A stretch of 40,137 nucleotides of DNA from Pleurocapsaceae cyanobacterium CSU_1_1. Its GTDB lineage: Bacteria; Cyanobacteriota; Cyanobacteriia; Cyanobacteriales; Xenococcaceae. This document shows positions 147-14,001 of this stretch, one piece after another (the stretch's first letter is position 1; each line of letters opens with the position of its first letter). The notes below the pieces were generated by a model, which was given only the letters and a program-made list of their open reading frames with translations, ran no database searches and was not told the origin of the DNA. The position numbers and the translations under genes were made by a program. The stretch spans positions 1-40,137 of the forward strand of contig JAAUOU010000035.1 in the NCBI GenBank assembly GCA_012034765.1. The letters are read 5' to 3'.

Positions 147-644
147 ATGGCTAAAGTTAATCATAATCAGTCTGTCCCAAAGGTTAGAAGTGTTGATGAA
201 CTACTTGCTGCCAAAAGAGCTAACAACCAACTTGGACGCAATAAAGCAACTGAAACTATTAAGACAACATCTGATGTGCTTCGGACTAACACTAAGAAAG
301 CTACCAGAGCCGAGCTACAAAATGATTTAGTTAAGAGTGCCGAACTAGCTCAGGCTCAGGGTGAAGAGGATGGTATCAAACAATTCCTCACAGAAGATAT
401 CCCTGCTGTGGTTAGAGCATTACAGGGTGAGCTTAAAACCAAACATCAGGAAGTATTAGCTAATAACGAAATCAAGTTGTTAGAATCCAGTGTCATTGAT
501 GCCGACTGGGAAAGTATCAACACTGATTATGATATGTCTTTTGAAACTGATAACTGGTTTTCTCTGGAAGGAGAAGTAGAAGTTAAATCATTACCCTCGA
601 TAAATGATAATAATCCCTTCAACTCGGACGATTTACCAGAGTAA
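147..644 (+). CDS. Hypothetical protein, 165 aa, first gene of the element
   Basis: I do not recognise a family. The start ATG is preceded by a GGAG Shine-Dalgarno about 12 bases upstream (131-134). The protein is hydrophilic, with a basic N-terminal third (many K, R, N and Q), a helical Ala/Glu/Leu-rich middle, and an acidic C-terminal tail ending near DDLPE. There is no signal peptide or membrane segment, so it is probably cytoplasmic. It heads a same-strand run with the genes at 688 and 1305. The basic head and acidic tail would suit a nucleic-acid or chaperone-like accessory role, but that is only inference. Confidence 0.6.
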   Translation: MAKVNHNQSVPKVRSVDELLAAKRANNQLGRNKATETIKTTSDVLRTNTKKATRAELQNDLVKSAELAQAQGEEDGIKQFLTEDIPAVVRALQGELKTKHQEVLANNEIKLLESSVIDADWESINTDYDMSFETDNWFSLEGEVEVKSLPSINDNNPFNSDDLPE

Positions 645-687: not shown

Positions 688-1275
688 ATGGAACTTACTC
701 AAGTTCAAAAGGATTTAATTATCAAGGGTTATGAAGCTCATTGTGCTGAGATAGAAAGATTAATTCAAGTACGCCTAACGGAGAATATGTTAGAGCTATA
801 CAGTCTTTTGTTATCGGATGGAAGAGCAGATGTTAAACGTTATTGTGCCGATAATAATATTGATGAACTGGATATAGATGAAGAAACTAAGGCAGATATA
901 GCATTAGGCATTACAGAAATAGAGCTTAAGACTTTACTGAAGCAGAAAGGCATTTATGACACTGAGTTAAAAGAGTTGGGTATCAGAACAAAAAGGATTA
1001 CTAACGGGATAGAAAATTGTCCTTGGTTCTCTATCTTTAATTCACCCGTCAGCCTTCAATGGCTGACTAAAAACACCGAGAAGATGTTAAAAAAATGCGC
1101 TATCAATCATAAATATTATGACTGGGTTAATAGCAAGATAGAGCATATCAAGGATGTCTGGAGTGAAATTGACCCACAGCAAGCCTTACCTGACATTAAA
1201 CGATACTGGCAGGTTTATAACTTTGAAGTGCCTGAGAGTGTGAAAGAGTTCTTGGTAAAGCAGTCTGGCAATTAG
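688..1275 (+). CDS. Hypothetical protein, 195 aa
   Basis: Family not recognised. It starts 43 bases after the previous stop. A purine-rich stretch (GGAG at 673-676) lies about 12 bases before the ATG and can serve as ribosome site. The protein is mostly alpha-helical, rich in E, K, I and L, with no signal peptide or membrane segment. Residues about 105-125 contain a Trp/Phe-rich patch (CPWFSIFNSPVSLQW). The end of this gene overlaps an open stretch in the next frame that runs into the following gene, so the C-terminus could be affected by a frameshift. Confidence 0.6.
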   Translation: MELTQVQKDLIIKGYEAHCAEIERLIQVRLTENMLELYSLLLSDGRADVKRYCADNNIDELDIDEETKADIALGITEIELKTLLKQKGIYDTELKELGIRTKRITNGIENCPWFSIFNSPVSLQWLTKNTEKMLKKCAINHKYYDWVNSKIEHIKDVWSEIDPQQALPDIKRYWQVYNFEVPESVKEFLVKQSGN

Positions 1276-1304: not shown

Positions 1305-1625
1305 ATGGATGGAGATATTAATTGTCAAGAGGAAGAGGATATCAATAACCAAAATGAGAGTATCAATTTATCAACACAAGTAATAGTTGAGATATTCAAC
1401 GATAAAGAAGTTGAGTTTAGAGAAAGATTTAATATCGTATTTCCCATCATCAAAGGGCAATGTTTAAACACTAAAGACTTTCAATTGGTAAGACAGAGTT
1501 TAATAACTGAGATAAGTAAAAGTTTAAATCCTGCTGATGTTATAAAAAACTTTTTGGATAACTACTCAAATGTAATTAACTGCTCACAGGAGAAACAATT
1601 AATAAAAATGATTGATAGTAGATAA
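1305..1625 (+). CDS. Hypothetical protein, 106 aa
   Basis: No family recognised. It is acidic, with an N-terminal stretch rich in E, D, N and Q (about residues 1-25) and a helical C-terminal half. The ATG lacks a clear Shine-Dalgarno. The same frame stays open upstream to about 1236 without ATG, reading into the 3' end of the previous gene, which raises the possibility that the two were once one longer reading frame. It is the last member of the same-strand run that begins at 147. Confidence 0.45.
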   Translation: MDGDINCQEEEDINNQNESINLSTQVIVEIFNDKEVEFRERFNIVFPIIKGQCLNTKDFQLVRQSLITEISKSLNPADVIKNFLDNYSNVINCSQEKQLIKMIDSR

Positions 1626-1878: not shown

Positions 1879-2052
1879 ATGAAACTAAAAAATACTCCCA
1901 AACAAGTTAGGATACCTGTTAATAAATTAACCATTATTGAGAGGATAGCAAGGTCAGAAGATAAAACTTCTTGCCAAGTAATAAGAGATGCGATTAACGC
2001 TCATCTAAAAAACTATCCTCATCTACTTGTGTACTCCACTACTAGCAGATGA
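1879..2052 (+). CDS. Small ribbon-helix-helix (CopG/Arc-like) protein, 57 aa
   Basis: A short gene of 58 codons from ATG 1879 to TGA 2050-2052. Residues about 8-14 (KQVRIPV) match the N-terminal beta strand of ribbon-helix-helix proteins. Two helices follow, about 16-26 and 31-45, joined by a short turn (SEDKTS), ending in a basic segment. The family binds DNA as dimers through the beta strand and often autoregulates plasmid replication or toxin-antitoxin operons. Its stop overlaps the start of the polymerase gene in an ATGA (2049-2052), so translation of the two is probably coupled. I infer a repressor or copy-control role. Confidence 0.7.
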   Translation: MKLKNTPKQVRIPVNKLTIIERIARSEDKTSCQVIRDAINAHLKNYPHLLVYSTTSR

Positions 2053-3539
2053 GACAAACAGTATCCAAAAAGTTTAGAGATGAAATAATTAAATGCTACC
2101 CTCAGTGTGCAGTAGACATCTCATACATGAGGTTTTTGCAGTACAGATTGTTTAGCAACAACTGGGAAGACCAAAGTAAGAATCTAATCAAAGTCCCCCA
2201 ATTTGCTTTAGCCTACTGCGAAGATAAACAGAAACAGTTAGCTAATAAGAATTACCAAGGACATTTGTTTTTACAGCGATTCAGAAAAGATGTACAGTAC
2301 ATTACTTGGACGGATTGGAGTTATGAGGAAGGTCGTTGTCGGGTAGTTGAGTTTTCTATTGCTGCCAGTCTTGACGCTTTTTTAGCACAAGAGCTTTACA
2401 AGGATTATCAAAATCAAGGCGGACGAGTTTATTTAATTAGTGGTGCTAAGTTTACCACCAGAAATAGAAATGCCGAACTTAAAAAAGCACAGGCAAAGCT
2501 GAGAAAAAATCTAGAACACATAAGAAAGTGTAGAAAAGTCCGAAAAGGTGCAGCCAAAGTATTCTTCTACATGATGAAAGTAGATATCAAGCATTACATC
2601 AAAATAATCGATAGCAATATCGATACCGTCGAACTAGCCATTAAAAACAGAATTGACCTAACCGAGACTAAGAAGAAAGTTTATTTAGAAACAGTAGATT
2701 GTTTAAGGGAGATAAAAAAACCGATGTTACATGGAGTACAAAACAGTTGGCGATTGTATGATGCAGGTGTTTCCATAACAGGCTTGCCTCGTCAATATCG
2801 CAAAATGCTCTGTAAAGGCTGGACTGAGTTTGATATTAAATCTAGTCAGTTAGCAATAGTTAGCAGTAAATGGAATATACCTACTATCCATAAGTTCCTC
2901 AGCGAACGTAATAGCGTATGGGACTTGTTCTTTAATGTCTTTCCTGTCTCCACCAATGAATATGAGGATGCCAAAAGGTTTTTCAAAGAAAGCTTATACA
3001 GTGTCGTATTCGGTAAAGCAGAATCAAGTATTGCCAAAGACTACGATAAGATATTTGGTTTAGGAGCAGGTAAAAAGTTTAGTGATATCTGGCTAGTTAA
3101 AGATTTATTTGATGCTCGTGAAGCTGAAATTAATAGATTAGCTAATGAACCACAGGGACGTTACTATTCCCTAGTTGCTGGACTGACTTGTAACCCCAAT
3201 AATTACTTTAAAACAGGAATGAGCAAAGGCGAACTCAATAAGTTTAAAAAAGAAACAGGAGTTATGCCTTACACTCAACGTAAGCGTATCACTTCTGCTA
3301 TGGCTCAAGAAGTACAGATGATAGAAATGGCGATACTGACTCCCATCATAGACTTAGCAGAAAAGAATAGTAACAATTATGTCATTACTCTATGGCAGCA
3401 TGACGGATTCTCAGTTAAGTTCCTAGATAAGAGTAAAAGGGACAAGTGTACTAAGGTAATTGTCAACAGATTCAAGACAACTATAGATAACCTCAAAGTC
3501 TTCAATATTCCTACCTATCTGGAATACGAACATCTTTGA
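2049..3539 (+). CDS. Family A-type polymerase palm protein (TV-Pol-like), putative replication protein, 496 aa
   Basis: The C-terminal half carries the order of motifs seen in family A DNA polymerases and T7-type RNA polymerases. Before motif A is a Leu-Pro-Arg segment (about residues 246-258). Motif A has Asp262 in EFDIKSSQLAI. Motif B has R310, K313 and a Phe-Gly at 321-322. Motif C has His451-Asp452 in LWQHDGFSV. At 496 aa it is much shorter than Pol I, and I see no 3'-5' exonuclease motifs. The basic N-terminal half is unassigned. As I remember it, this resembles the TV-Pol group of mobile-element polymerases. Coupling to an RHH gene and a VapE ATPase in the same element suggests a replication or primer-making role. 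The fold is well supported by motifs; the function is inferred. Confidence 0.7.
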   Translation: MRQTVSKKFRDEIIKCYPQCAVDISYMRFLQYRLFSNNWEDQSKNLIKVPQFALAYCEDKQKQLANKNYQGHLFLQRFRKDVQYITWTDWSYEEGRCRVVEFSIAASLDAFLAQELYKDYQNQGGRVYLISGAKFTTRNRNAELKKAQAKLRKNLEHIRKCRKVRKGAAKVFFYMMKVDIKHYIKIIDSNIDTVELAIKNRIDLTETKKKVYLETVDCLREIKKPMLHGVQNSWRLYDAGVSITGLPRQYRKMLCKGWTEFDIKSSQLAIVSSKWNIPTIHKFLSERNSVWDLFFNVFPVSTNEYEDAKRFFKESLYSVVFGKAESSIAKDYDKIFGLGAGKKFSDIWLVKDLFDAREAEINRLANEPQGRYYSLVAGLTCNPNNYFKTGMSKGELNKFKKETGVMPYTQRKRITSAMAQEVQMIEMAILTPIIDLAEKNSNNYVITLWQHDGFSVKFLDKSKRDKCTKVIVNRFKTTIDNLKVFNIPTYLEYEHL

Positions 3540-3958
3540 ACTACATTGCTCTAATTTCTGCCTTTAATGTCTGATAGCAAGAGCCATTGCTACCATCATC
3601 TATCAACCAGCTAGATTTCTCCACAGGTAGCTATTAAGGATACAACACCAGACAGGGATTATTATTTTCTCCTCTTATAGATACGTAGATATAGAGAGAT
3701 AGAAATAGCTGTAGTGTTTGTGTAGAAAACCATAGCTCGCTTTTGACTTACTGCAAGTTTCTCCCCCAAGATATTAGGTGGTTAATACAAGCTACTTGTT
3801 CTAAGTTATACAGTCTATAGTTCATGTCAAAAAAAGTTTTAGTTCTACGATATTAATCTCAAATAAATACCCAACCTGTTAGGAAGTTGTAAAAAGACTT
3901 AGACCCATCTTCTTAATTGAGGGTGGTTTTTTATTGTCTATTTATCGCTACAAAGACT
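3540..3958. other. Gene-poor spacer after the polymerase gene
   Basis: About 420 bases with no convincing reading frame. It contains a GATA/TAGA-rich stretch (about 3675-3710) and, near its end, a weak hairpin (ACCC at 3903-3906 with GGGT at 3921-3924) followed by six T residues, which may end the polymerase transcript. It could hold an origin because it follows the replication gene, but there are no clear iterons. Confidence 0.4.
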
Positions 3959-4270
3959 ATGACAACCTTTAAACCAATTCACAATACTTATGACCCTAAC
4001 AGAGATGACCGTCCTAAATTAGTTTCTATTGGCGTAAGTTTAATCACCTACGAAGTGCATCACATAATTCAAGACGATCGCCATATAGAAATACCTGTCG
4101 AAGACGAAGTAGTTTATCTCACAGTTCCAAGAGAAATCCTACATTTACCTTGTGGAGGCGCGTCTTATGACATTATTGCCGACTTACTAGAAGCACAAGG
4201 TTATCTCAGAAAGCATTGGTCAATTATGTCAGTTTGGGAGTGCATTCCTGAAGACCAGCATCCATTCTAA
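3959..4270 (+). CDS. Hypothetical protein, 103 aa
   Basis: Not recognised. I place the start at ATG 3959 (MTTFKPIHNTYDPN) instead of the longer GTG frame from 3917, because that upstream part overlaps a terminator-like hairpin. The protein is soluble, beta-rich and acidic, with repeated His, Tyr and Val in the middle and a C-terminal Trp-containing segment. It is followed after 56 bases by a second hypothetical gene on the same strand and probably shares its transcript, which ends at the strong terminator at 4901. Confidence 0.5.
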   Translation: MTTFKPIHNTYDPNRDDRPKLVSIGVSLITYEVHHIIQDDRHIEIPVEDEVVYLTVPREILHLPCGGASYDIIADLLEAQGYLRKHWSIMSVWECIPEDQHPF

Positions 4271-4326: not shown

Positions 4327-4887
4327 ATGAAAACTCATCAAGCAGAAGTAATTAACTGTGTAATTGCCAATACAAAGTATGGTCGCAAGCTTGTCCTCAA
4401 CTGTAAATTATTATCTGATAATTCTCAGGTAGCCTGTTGGAGTAATGAGCTAGGTAATAAACTATATCGCTCAAAGCATAAAGGCGATATTGTTGAGATT
4501 ATCGAATCTGACAAAGGTAAATATAGTGTTCTTGACAGAGAGCCACCTCACAACATAGGAGGGGAAGGATTAAAGCCTGTTAAAGACATAATGCCCAATA
4601 TACCCAAATCAAATGGCTATGTTAACAATGGTACTACTACTACTCAACAAGTCGCCTCTAGTGCTGTAGACGACTATCTTAGTAATGATTTGGGACTGCC
4701 AGAGTTACTAACAGATAAGCAGAAACATGATTTGTCTAAGCTCACAGTTGAACGCGCCCGTCTTTTAGTTTTCTGTATTGAGACTATGAAAAATGAGATG
4801 GATGCTAAAGGCTTCGAGTTCTACGAAAATTCAGTCCGTAGCCTTGGGGTGAGTTTGTTTATCCAAATCACCCGTTATCTTTCATAA
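4327..4887 (+). CDS. Hypothetical protein with OB-fold-like N-terminus, 186 aa
   Basis: Family not recognised. Residues about 5-70 alternate short beta strands and turns with aromatic and basic residues, and read like an OB-fold. A flexible segment rich in Gly, Asn and Thr (about 78-112, including TTTTQQ) follows, then a helical C-terminal domain (about 115-186). An OB-fold with a flexible linker inside a replicon would fit a single-stranded DNA-binding or other replication accessory protein, but no SSB signature is present and this is inference. The stop is followed 13 bases later by a near-ideal terminator. Confidence 0.55.
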   Translation: MKTHQAEVINCVIANTKYGRKLVLNCKLLSDNSQVACWSNELGNKLYRSKHKGDIVEIIESDKGKYSVLDREPPHNIGGEGLKPVKDIMPNIPKSNGYVNNGTTTTQQVASSAVDDYLSNDLGLPELLTDKQKHDLSKLTVERARLLVFCIETMKNEMDAKGFEFYENSVRSLGVSLFIQITRYLS

Positions 4888-11183: not shown

Positions 11184-11530
11184 TTAACGTCAATCAAGCT
11201 CGACTTAATAGCCTGAAATCCTTATACAGAGTACTTTTTGTCTAGTTGACGTTGAGAAGACTAGCAGACAAAAAGGTGGGTAACTCTATAAAAACAAAAA
11301 ATTACTAATTTCAAATTCACGATAACGTCAATTTCTTTTTCCTTATCAAACTAAAATTTTTACCCTGACTTTGTTTTATCCAGTTGACGTTAAGAAAATC
11401 CTCAAACTAAAAAATCAGGAACTCTACCGAAATAGAATGTTCCTGATTAATTATTGAACTTAACGTCAATTAGCTAGAACTAAATGACTTCAATCTTTTA
11501 CGCAGCCTTGTCTTCGTCTAGTTGACATTG
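11184..11530. repeat. Three spaced TTGACGTTA-type inverted-repeat units
   Basis: Each unit has a left arm TAACGTCAAT and a right arm AGTTGACGTT facing each other about 50 bases apart: 11185-11194 with 11244-11253, 11323-11332 with 11382-11391, and 11461-11470 with 11520-11529. Units repeat every 138-139 bases. The last right arm has one change (AGTTGACATT) and lies within the 3' end of the VapE gene. Intervening sequences differ, so only the arms are conserved. Regular spacing of a protein-sized palindromic site suggests an origin or a regulatory/recombination region, which is inference. Confidence 0.75.
11409..11448 (-). terminator. Intrinsic terminator of the VapE gene
   Basis: Read on the minus strand, AATCAGGAAC (11448 to 11439) pairs with GTTCCTGATT (11422 to 11413) and continues into six T residues (11414-11409). 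It lies 50 bases after the VapE stop and between two of the TTGACGTTA arms. Confidence 0.75.
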
Positions 11531-13126
11531 ACTATCAGAATTATCTCCGAAATAGTCATCAGCCTTGACCCAAATAGCGTGAGGAATCTCACTTATGTCT
11601 AACACTTGAGGTTGACATCTAGGGTCACTATTCAACTTATTAAATAGCTTTTGTCTTTGTTGATTACTAATCTTCTTGGGACAATAGCCAAAGTTTTGCT
11701 GCAATAGATTTCTAATGTCTTTCAGAGCTTTGCTATTAGGCTTGTTTATTTCTCGTTTTGAGATATCGAGTGCAGGGAGTGCTGCAATGTTCTCAGGGAG
11801 AACATATTCATCCATTTTATGGCGTTCAAGATATTGTTTAATTGGTTGATACCACGGGGACTCATAAGTGAATGAGGCGTTGGATTTCTCCAGCTTCGCA
11901 GCTTCTTCTTCATTCAACCACCATTGTTCGCCATTGTTATAGGCATGAACAGCAGCAGCCCAAATTCCATCAATCTCTTGTTCCAAACGAGGAATATCAA
12001 TCTTACCGTTGACAGGCACAATCCAATATCGGCGTGAACCTGTTTGGTCGGTGAGAAAACTTCCATTATTGGCAGTGCCAGTCAGAACAAATCGTCGGTC
12101 ACACTTCTGCATTGTGGCTGAATATGCTGGACGAAAGACATCTGTTGAAGAAGTGATAAAGTCTTTTATTTCCTCCTGTTTAATGCGACGGAATTTAGTG
12201 TCAATTTCCCCTATCTCAGTGAACCAATATTGGTGCAGCTTTGAATAGAAGTCCTTGTTTAGGTTAATTTCTGGAACAGTGTCATTGAACCACGCAGGGT
12301 TTTTTGCCAAAGTTCTTAAGAAACTAGATTTTCCAATCCCTTGTTGGGGAGAATAAAGAATCAAGATGGCATGGACGGAACATCCAGGGTTGAGAACCCT
12401 TGCCACAGCAGCTATCAATGTTTTTTTGATTAACAAGTTAGCTAGCTGATTTTTATTCCCTAGATATCGTTCTGCTAAATTATCAATATCAACTGGACTA
12501 ACTGAATCTAATTCGTCCTTGAGATATTTTTCCACTGGATGATAAGTATTTCTACTTAGAGCATCCATTAAGTGGTTTTTAAAAGCTTTCTCTTTTTGGA
12601 ATTTAACTTGATAATCTTTTTCGCATTCTACCAAGACACGATTCTCCACATTGAGAGTTTCGTTCTGATGTCGGCGCAAACTCTTTTCGTCTAATTCGAC
12701 ATCTTGAGTTAAAAGATTATATTTTAGTCTTGATTCAAGAATTTGTTTGACAAATCCTTGAGTTTCTTCCAGTGAGATTGTCGTTAGTTCAGGAGCTTTA
12801 TGCTGGTTGCGGAAATTTGCAACTTGCTCTAGTTTAGTTTCACCCTTACTAGAATTATCAATTTGTTCTTCGTTACTGCTTTCAGAAAATTCTCTGTCAG
12901 CAAAAGTATCGAACTCATTGAAAGCATTAGATTTGTTATCAGTCTGCTCAACTACGACATTGTTGATATTGGGTTTTTCAGTTTGAATATCTAGGTTATT
13001 GCTGTTATCGACAGAAGTTTCTGAATTTACAGCGTCAACTTCCATCTGTGATGAAAAATCAACTTTGGAAGTTTTTGGGACAGGAGATTGAAAATTTTTT
13101 CTATTATTAGTCATTGATATTTCCAT
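11498..13126 (-). CDS. VapE/VirE-family P-loop ATPase (putative replicative helicase), 542 aa
   Basis: Residues about 1-115 are polar and low-complexity (Q, N, E, S), probably disordered. From about 190 the protein matches the virulence-associated E (VirE/VapE) domain: a Walker A at 263-268 (GIGKSS after SPQQ), a Walker B-like WFTEIGE at about 301-307, then TSSTDVFRPAY, and the family signature around TGTANNGSFLTD and GSRRYWIVPV (350-371). A C-terminal segment rich in K and Q follows. In phages, satellites and plasmids, such proteins act in replication, probably as hexameric helicases. It shares the element with the family A-like polymerase. The start could also be ATG 13114, which has GGAAA upstream. 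Confidence 0.85.
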   Translation of the reverse strand: MEISMTNNRKNFQSPVPKTSKVDFSSQMEVDAVNSETSVDNSNNLDIQTEKPNINNVVVEQTDNKSNAFNEFDTFADREFSESSNEEQIDNSSKGETKLEQVANFRNQHKAPELTTISLEETQGFVKQILESRLKYNLLTQDVELDEKSLRRHQNETLNVENRVLVECEKDYQVKFQKEKAFKNHLMDALSRNTYHPVEKYLKDELDSVSPVDIDNLAERYLGNKNQLANLLIKKTLIAAVARVLNPGCSVHAILILYSPQQGIGKSSFLRTLAKNPAWFNDTVPEINLNKDFYSKLHQYWFTEIGEIDTKFRRIKQEEIKDFITSSTDVFRPAYSATMQKCDRRFVLTGTANNGSFLTDQTGSRRYWIVPVNGKIDIPRLEQEIDGIWAAAVHAYNNGEQWWLNEEEAAKLEKSNASFTYESPWYQPIKQYLERHKMDEYVLPENIAALPALDISKREINKPNSKALKDIRNLLQQNFGYCPKKISNQQRQKLFNKLNSDPRCQPQVLDISEIPHAIWVKADDYFGDNSDSQCQLDEDKAA

Positions 13127-13410
13127 GTTTTTAAAATTTAATCGAGTTTGATAATCTCTTCAAAAATTGAAGTAAATTATTAACTCTAAATAAATTACCT
13201 GGAGTTATAAACTCTACGTTTATAAAGTTATCAACGTCACTAATATCACTTAAACCTTATTCCTGCACTTCTCTAATATATGACTTTGTAATACTAAATG
13301 ATGTGATTTGAATCAATCCCTTGTTTGATTTTGGTCACACTACTAGTATCTAGAGTATGATAAAGAAAAATGTAATTTATTTGAAACCTTTAAAACTATG
13401 AATAATATTA

Positions 13411-14001
13411 ATGTACGAATTATCAATGGCGTTAAGACACGCCCCCGAAGTATTTGTAGATATCTCAAACTATGAAGGATATTATCAAGTCTCAAACTAC
13501 GGTAATGTAAGAAGCTTAGACCGTGTAATCAAAGAAAAGACTGGTAAAACTCAAACTCTCAAAGGTCGAATACTAAAACCAAGAATAAATCCTGGCGGAT
13601 ACTATCATGTAGGGTTAGGAAAAAATGGCACTAGAGCAACATTTGCCATTCATCAACTTGTAGCACGAGCTTTTATACCCAATCCCAACAATAAAAAAAC
13701 CGTCAATCACATTAACGGAAATAAGCTCTCAAACAGCGTTTCTAATCTCGAATGGTCTACATACTCAGAGAACTTAGAACACGCTTATAAAACTGGATTA
13801 AGACGGGCTGTTAAATCTAATGAAGTGGTTGGTAAAAACTATAAAAGGAAAGTTACAGAGCAACAAGTGAGAGAAATTAAGTTATTGATAGCAGCTAAAT
13901 CTCTTACCCTCAAACAGATTGCAAATCAGTATAACGTAGGACGCTCCACTATCGGCTCTATCAAGTCTGGTAGAAACTGGAGCTATATTTTAGTTCAGTA
14001 A
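13411..14001 (+). CDS. NUMOD4-HNH endonuclease with C-terminal HTH, 196 aa
   Basis: Residues about 13-57 are a NUMOD4 DNA-binding motif (FVDISNYEGYYQVSNYG, VRSLDR). An HNH nuclease core follows at about 78-125, with IHQLVARAFIP, TVNHINGNKLSNS and NLEWST, where His100, Asn109/112 and the earlier His81 are likely metal or catalytic residues. A helix-turn-helix at about 150-190 (VREIKLLI, LKQIANQYNVGRSTIGSI) should give sequence specificity. This is the standard architecture of free-standing phage and plasmid homing endonucleases. Start may also be ATG 13426. It sits 100 bases from the truncated tRNA, on the opposite strand to it. Confidence 0.9.
   Translation: MYELSMALRHAPEVFVDISNYEGYYQVSNYGNVRSLDRVIKEKTGKTQTLKGRILKPRINPGGYYHVGLGKNGTRATFAIHQLVARAFIPNPNNKKTVNHINGNKLSNSVSNLEWSTYSENLEHAYKTGLRRAVKSNEVVGKNYKRKVTEQQVREIKLLIAAKSLTLKQIANQYNVGRSTIGSIKSGRNWSYILVQ

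Follow-up and report, generated by a model that had tools for sequence, protein, structure and literature searches.

A TV-Pol-like family A polymerase and a neighbouring ribbon-helix-helix gene in a probable mobile element of a Pleurocapsaceae cyanobacterium

The 40,137-nucleotide stretch of Pleurocapsaceae cyanobacterium CSU_1_1 DNA analysed here (contig JAAUOU010000035.1; the window) codes for a 496-amino acid protein whose assignment to the family A polymerase superfamily, as a TV-Pol-like member, is supported by profile comparisons, a predicted fold and invariant catalytic residues. Its gene is preceded by a small gene coding a likely ribbon-helix-helix (RHH) repressor. We favour, with moderate confidence, the view that the polymerase makes the DNA of a mobile element and that the neighbouring RHH protein represses the module. 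An earlier reading of the letters alone (the sequence-only reading) had described a 57-amino acid RHH gene overlapping the 496-amino acid gene by ATGA; both open reading frames are present as described. The features used below are the following, with fractions giving the number of aligned family members that keep a residue.

147..644, + strand: element gene, 165 aa (84% to G010)
688..1275, + strand: element backbone gene, 195 aa (74% to G010, 43% to G003, 42% to G007)
1305..1625, + strand: element gene, 106 aa (63% to G010)
1879..2052, + strand: 57-aa RHH (CopG/Arc-type) protein, likely repressor (weak Pfam and PHROG matches; homologues in G009 and G003)
2049..2052, + strand: ATGA start/stop overlap of the RHH and polymerase ORFs (among the loci compared, in the window genome only)
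2049..3539, + strand: 496-aa TV-Pol-like family A polymerase without recognisable exonuclease domain (predicted structure, Foldseek, profile comparison)
2751..2753, + strand: R235 codon, beta-hairpin Arg aligned with the TGR Arg of Pol I (11/11)
2832..2834, + strand: D262 codon, motif A catalytic Asp (11/11)
2847..2849, + strand: Q267 codon, at the place of the Pol I steric-gate Glu, E710 (Gln in 11/11)
2973..3014, + strand: motif B, K309-x3-K313-x3-Y317-x3-F321-G322 (K309, K313 and G322 in 11/11)
3399..3407, + strand: motif C, H451-D452-G453 (11/11)
3959..4270, + strand: element backbone gene, 103 aa (start at 3917 in the ORF list; the ATG at 3959 fits the G005 homologue)
4327..4887, + strand: element backbone gene, 186 aa, candidate ssDNA-binding protein (low-confidence model)

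Neither Pfam nor NCBIfam gives the 496-amino acid protein a match above cut-off, and it is unmatched in PHROGs and among PDB sequences. Searches of phages and IMG/VR with the window protein gave nothing useful, nor did profile searches of PDB sequences and a phage search with a relative; homologues came from searches of genomes, from profile scans and from a single plasmid record. They include proteins of G010 (80%), G009 (72-78%, two fragments) and G118 (32-34%), and one at 24% encoded by a 557-kb plasmid of Deinococcus peraridilitoris. Profiles added members from a Chloroflexales genome, from two contigs of a MAG titled Bacteroidetes, from another MAG titled Chthonomonas and from two IMG/VR contigs, together with a divergent polymerase copy in the fetched stretch of G003 (E 3.6e-25). 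Since this last copy was overlooked by single-protein searches, the tallies of 3/60, 3/27 and 2/386 (the last by protein and by profile alike; the window's own genome is in each) are lower bounds. The alignment discussed below has 11 members, the window protein and its 80% relative included and the G009 fragments left out.

The best of five structure models, computed from the 11-sequence input, reached a pLDDT of 83.3 and a pTM of 0.76, and the remaining four had pLDDT values of 71-74. When compared to the PDB with Foldseek, the best 50 of its 406 matches were family A DNA polymerases without exception (best E 8.1e-7, probability 1.00), at TM-scores of only 0.37-0.44 and rmsd values of 6.6-15.3 A. 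The top match in BFVD is an uncharacterised 509-amino acid phage protein (4.7e-8), followed mostly by phage polymerases where the proteins are named. The polymerase identity read from the motifs is supported by the best predicted structure.

Eleven positions are invariant in the 11 aligned members: R235, D262, Q267, K309, K313, G322, Q423, E426, H451, D452 and G453. Y317 is found in 10 of them, and position 321 is F or Y in all. In a profile alignment with Pol I (Prob 91.9) the conserved residues fall on the Pol I motifs in order, D262 being paired with the motif A Asp, Q267 with the steric-gate Glu, K309 and K313 with the Arg and Lys of the O helix and H451-D452 with motif C. We take the Pol I roles of these positions (motif A, steric gate, O helix and motif C) as commonly understood, and the spacing of motif B is that of the Pol I O helix. 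The residue numbers given earlier for D262, K313, F321-G322 and H451-D452 are correct, and D262, K313 and D452 are kept in 11/11 members. R310, proposed as a motif B residue, lies outside the invariant columns, and the invariant positive pair is K309/K313. The steric-gate role of Pol I E710 is covered in the accessible part of PMC7581432.

The sequence-only reading saw no exonuclease domain, and no exonuclease signature is conserved in the family: within residues 1-224, acidic residues shared by 9 or more of the 11 members occur at positions 40 and 58 only, with no four-acid exonuclease site. Tested for the attributes of Pol I, the protein lacks the 5'-3' and 3'-5' exonuclease domains and the steric-gate Glu. 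The predicted fold and the conserved motifs support placing it, as a palm polymerase with no recognisable exonuclease domain, in the Pol I superfamily. It shares with Pol I the fold and the order of the motifs but differs by the unrecognised exonucleases, by Gln at the steric gate and by HDG in place of HDE at motif C.

TV-Pols are relatives of family A polymerases with 400-600 amino acids, carried by mobile elements and viruses, one of them being found in cyanophage Ma-LMM01 (available part of PMC2579912). Five TV-Pol-like sequences were assembled for comparison: Ma-LMM01 gp30 (506 amino acids, adjoining transposase genes), a Calothrix and two Polaromonas plasmid proteins, and a protein of G054. 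We infer that gp30 and its relatives belong to the TV-Pols as defined by Iyer 2008, the set being distinct from the published alignment. The 11-sequence family profile aligned to this set by hhalign with Prob 99.3 and E 4.7e-20 over 393 columns, and two non-overlapping family subsets of 3 and 4 sequences reached Prob 97.3 and 98.0. Controls stayed far lower (integrases 0.5, the giant protein of the element 0.1, best of 20 column shuffles 0.2). Against single TV-Pol-like sequences the family profile gave uneven Prob values, 98 for both Polaromonas proteins, 80 for G054, 52 for Calothrix and 20 for gp30. The earlier note had invoked a Pol I / T7 RNA polymerase superfamily. Its Pol I side stands, with Prob 94.2 and the predicted fold in its favour, while the T7/SP6 RNA polymerase profile gave Prob 0.4, a weak test as this profile holds two sequences. 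Against the TV-Pol-like placement speak the low values obtained with Pol I, Prob 5.2 and 30.8 for the two family subsets and 2.4 for the TV-Pol-like set, one row of which is broken; all these profiles are shallow.

The motifs agree with the TV-Pol-like placement. QHDG occurs at motif C in 9/11 family members and in 4/5 TV-Pol-like sequences, the fifth ending before the motif. At motif A the window has D-I-K-S-S-Q, and Calothrix and G054 have D-L-K-S-S-Q; the last place, Gln in 11/11 family members, is His in the other three TV-Pol-like sequences. The fingers carry KxxxK in 11/11 family members and RxxxK in TV-Pol, and the TV-Pol-like alignment, judged by eye, has no fixed Arg at the same place. 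In a tree subject to a long-branch warning, Pol I is split from all other sequences (100/99) and 10 of the 11 family members form their own branch (95/97), all 11 grouping at 74/45. The tree fits the TV-Pol link, lending it weak support short of proof. The comparison with the divPolA2 protein AUR84708, a single sequence, had no power (Prob 0.2, likewise 0.2 for the Pol I control). As judged from these profiles and motifs, the nearest relatives found are the phage and plasmid set that we identify with TV-Pols, a described group of mobile-element polymerases.

The family resembles TV-Pol, as presented in the available part of PMC2579912, in its length of 400-600 amino acids, family A palm and fingers, hairpin Arg and lack of a nuclease, and also in its residence in mobile elements and phages with integrase- and KilA-C-type neighbours. 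It differs by the branch, gate residue and fingers described above and by the RHH gene as recurrent neighbour. TV-Pol is moreover often, though not universally, linked to a D5-like helicase, whereas no helicase was recognised among the family neighbours scanned or by a P-loop pattern, an insensitive one that overlooked the P-loop of a VapE-like gene in the same window. This gene (11498-13126, Pfam E 2e-64) was considered as partner helicase and discarded, being 8 kb off, on the other strand and unmatched in the fetched G010 stretches. With a NUMOD4/HNH endonuclease gene it occupies 11498-14001, possibly a second mobile island.

The window RHH protein scores 14.6 bits with RHH_1, under the Pfam cut-off of 20.5, and matches phrog_876 weakly (E 0.0027). 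Its homologue in G009 is at 76%, and that of G003 (33%, BLAST 5e-5) scores 29.9 bits with Arc and 25 bits with RHH_1, above both cut-offs. The window, G009, G118 and G003 proteins served to build a model, which was run on 332 small ORFs located within 3 kb of the polymerase in 12 loci, G009 being counted once, by its upstream contig. An RHH-like gene is present in 7/12 loci, four of which built the model and one of which is borderline, so that the pairing put forward for the window recurs. The model matches genes of G010 (1.4e-7 and 1.4e-4) and, on the opposite strand, of G427 (4.9e-4); the G428 gene, directly upstream on the same strand, falls below the inclusion line (E 0.013). Pfam RHH_1 backs the G010, G427 and G428 genes weakly (E 0.002-0.033, below cut-off), and the remaining five loci gave the model no match at E 1 or below.

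Position and strand of the RHH-like neighbours vary among loci. Translational coupling by the ATGA overlap, suggested at first, can be seen in the window and is not kept in G009, G118, G003 or G010; as a family feature it was dropped. In G009, whose polymerase has the same start context as that of the window, a gap of 464 bp with a second small ORF separates the two genes. In G118 an antirepressor gene sits between them, and in G003 and G010 the RHH genes are downstream of the polymerase. A 61-amino acid ORF between the RHH and polymerase genes of G009 (L004:693-878) looks itself like an RHH gene, with no Pfam support. The palindrome TTGTAT-N4-ATACAA at 1829-1844, the sole candidate operator standing out for the autoregulation proposed in the sequence-only reading, was rejected since it is not kept in G009.

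CopG-type RHH proteins act as repressors, and in CopG-RepB plasmid operons a small RHH gene precedes that of the replication initiator RepB. The window has the same order with the small RHH gene first, but RepB is unrelated to the polymerase, and repression would be assigned here by analogy. The recurrent neighbourhood together with the CopG precedent makes it plausible that the RHH protein represses transcription of the module, which would hold the polymerase at a low level while the element is integrated.

The relatives of the polymerase reside in integrated elements, a prophage, phage contigs and a plasmid. The element of G010 comprises a tyrosine integrase, a giant 1124-amino acid protein, the three genes found upstream in the window, the polymerase and the two genes found downstream. 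The G118 polymerase comes after an RHH gene and the antirepressor gene, and is flanked by an integrase and, about 6 kb off, by a major head protein. A tyrosine integrase is found near the polymerase in G010, G118 and L013, downstream in the latter. G428, an IMG/VR contig of 38.7 kb, carries the polymerase alongside terminase, portal and head proteins. Beyond about 6 kb, many of the window genes scanned look chromosomal (LeuA, DnaG, BFA1 and others), and the RHH/polymerase pair therefore seems to lie at the edge of an integrated element.

The elements of G003 and G007 have nine upstream proteins that are 93-100% identical and two common downstream genes at 61-79%. Within this shared frame the polymerase and RHH genes of G003 (L050:2375-4438) are replaced in G007 by a gene coding 397 amino acids (L048:10722-11915), which is not related to the polymerase profile (Prob 0.3). 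Because the swap occurs within so similar an upstream backbone, the polymerase and RHH genes look like an exchangeable module and not part of the element backbone. Their function as a replication module is plausible, although the slot has no polymerase in G007.

The same exchange would fit an accessory polymerase, carried as cargo for repair, translesion synthesis or phage conflict and swapped in and out without being the replicase of the element. The G007 slot occupied by an unrelated gene favours this explanation, as do the canonical PolA that the 190-kb contig G427 carries about 6 kb from the family polymerase and the candidate OB-fold gene (4327-4887), which is retained in G005 and G007, in fetched stretches with no polymerase detected by the family profile. 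On the other side, G428 shows no second polymerase by PF00476, though this record may be a fragment, and DNA polymerases of phages likewise swap in situ according to the accessible part of PMC11348598. We regard a cargo enzyme as somewhat unlikely, though less so than the other alternatives. The canonical PolA of G427 is split into an exonuclease and a polymerase ORF, with an ORF for 293 amino acids on the opposite strand between them (L029:16114-19462).

In the explanation preferred here, the polymerase would synthesise DNA for the mobile element on its excision, cell entry or replication. It would extend primers and perhaps make its own, as suggested by the proposals for TV-Pol and by CcPol-MP, and would be of low fidelity since it has no exonuclease. 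Weighing against this view are the lack of a recognised helicase among the neighbours scanned, the G007 slot without polymerase, the canonical PolA of G427, the lower pLDDT of four of the five models, the low TM-scores and the uneven profile values.

Two replacements in 11/11 members could be taken to indicate a single-subunit RNA polymerase or a maker of RNA primers akin to T7 RNA polymerase: Gln for the steric-gate Glu and Gly for the Glu after the motif C Asp, the Pol I residues being taken from the alignment and from general knowledge. The Gln gate may leave room for ribonucleotide use. The T7/SP6 comparison, weak as a test, and the exclusive presence of DNA polymerases among the best 50 of 406 PDB matches speak against such an enzyme, which we hold to be very unlikely.

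The window and G010 polymerase genes differ by dN 0.116 and dS 1.12 (dN/dS ~0.1 over 495 codons, dS being near saturation), which indicates that purifying selection acts on the gene. This selection, combined with the relatives that cover most of the length of the protein in other phyla, implies that the ORF is more than chance. A pseudogene or decaying remnant at the contig edge is scarcely credible with a fully open frame, catalytic residues retained and dN this far below dS, even if the related element of G005 has decayed, its integrase lying in two ORFs and its giant gene being shortened.

Other exonuclease-free members of family A offer points of comparison. CcPol-MP, a polymerase of family A, primes once a second protein with a predicted OB fold has joined it (accessible parts of PMC10061031 and PMC7581432). 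The CcPol-MP / PolA-SSB primases described there share with the family the loss of exonuclease, an integrating element and an OB-fold-like gene in the same element. CcPol keeps the equivalents of E710 and F762 (PMC7581432, in part), whereas the family has Gln and Tyr, the latter being His in one member. In PolA-SSB primases the gene of the OB-fold SSB is located between those of the polymerase and helicase; here the OB candidate is not adjacent and no helicase was recognised. No family member was found in Bacillota by searches aimed elsewhere. The divergent PolA proteins divPolA1 and divPolA2 of phages also have no working exonuclease and accompany a regular DNA polymerase, an arrangement seen in G427 too (PMC11348598, accessible part).

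The OB candidate gene starts 787 bp past the polymerase gene, with another gene intervening. Its product of 186 amino acids was modelled at a pLDDT of 57, with block means of 70-85 over most of residues 1-40 and 51-70. The first ~70 amino acids probably form an OB fold, and the carboxyl-terminal half is predicted to be helical. Foldseek gave no match at E <=0.001 for this model (best 1.5e-3); the recognisable ones among the matches listed are mainly OB folds (ribosomal S12-type chains, IF-1 and RPA). The pairing of this protein with the polymerase as a PolA-SSB primase was rated weak, the model being of low confidence, and was not retained since the gene is not adjacent and occurs where the polymerase does not. 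The 186-amino acid protein (window 4327-4887, L050:344-889) looks mosaic, its carboxyl-terminal half being near-identical between G003 and the others while the amino-terminal half has strongly diverged.

The TV-Pol kind has been known since 2008, and the window family would be a variant within it. In the accessible parts of the open-access literature no description of this polymerase branch or of its RHH link was found, most subscription papers being outside this scope. A 2026 survey of bacterial DNA polymerases recognises three main PolA groups, and the terms TV-Pol and CcPol are absent from its accessible part (PMC12926913). According to the part of the CcPol paper available, no TV-Pol besides CcPol has been characterised biochemically (PMC7581432). 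Members of the family are small and well defined, and they differ naturally from Pol I at a residue that helps it to exclude ribonucleotides. With them, priming by minimal family A polymerases can be tested in groups other than Bacillota, and they suggest a cassette of regulator and polymerase moving between phages and integrating elements. A bolder proposal, which we consider unlikely, is that of a new exonuclease-free family A branch with a Gln gate that starts synthesis de novo, possibly with ribonucleotides, without dedicated helicase or SSB, is repressed by the RHH protein and passes, as a unit of two genes, between elements and phages. Such a branch would extend over Cyanobacteria, Deinococcus and contigs titled Chloroflexales, Chthonomonas and Bacteroidetes.

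The giant protein of the elements has 1118-1238 amino acids (L017:3510-6884 in G010, and L009, L048 and L050) and Ma-LMM01 gp64 (L047:7812-12833) has 1673. A DxDGD motif is present in 5/5 sequences inspected, which in our estimation resembles the catalytic loop of two-barrel RNA polymerases. The G010 copy has no Pfam or PHROG match and no meaningful NCBIfam match. A weak tblastn link connects the giant protein to Microcystis phages (E 9e-4 to 1e-2).
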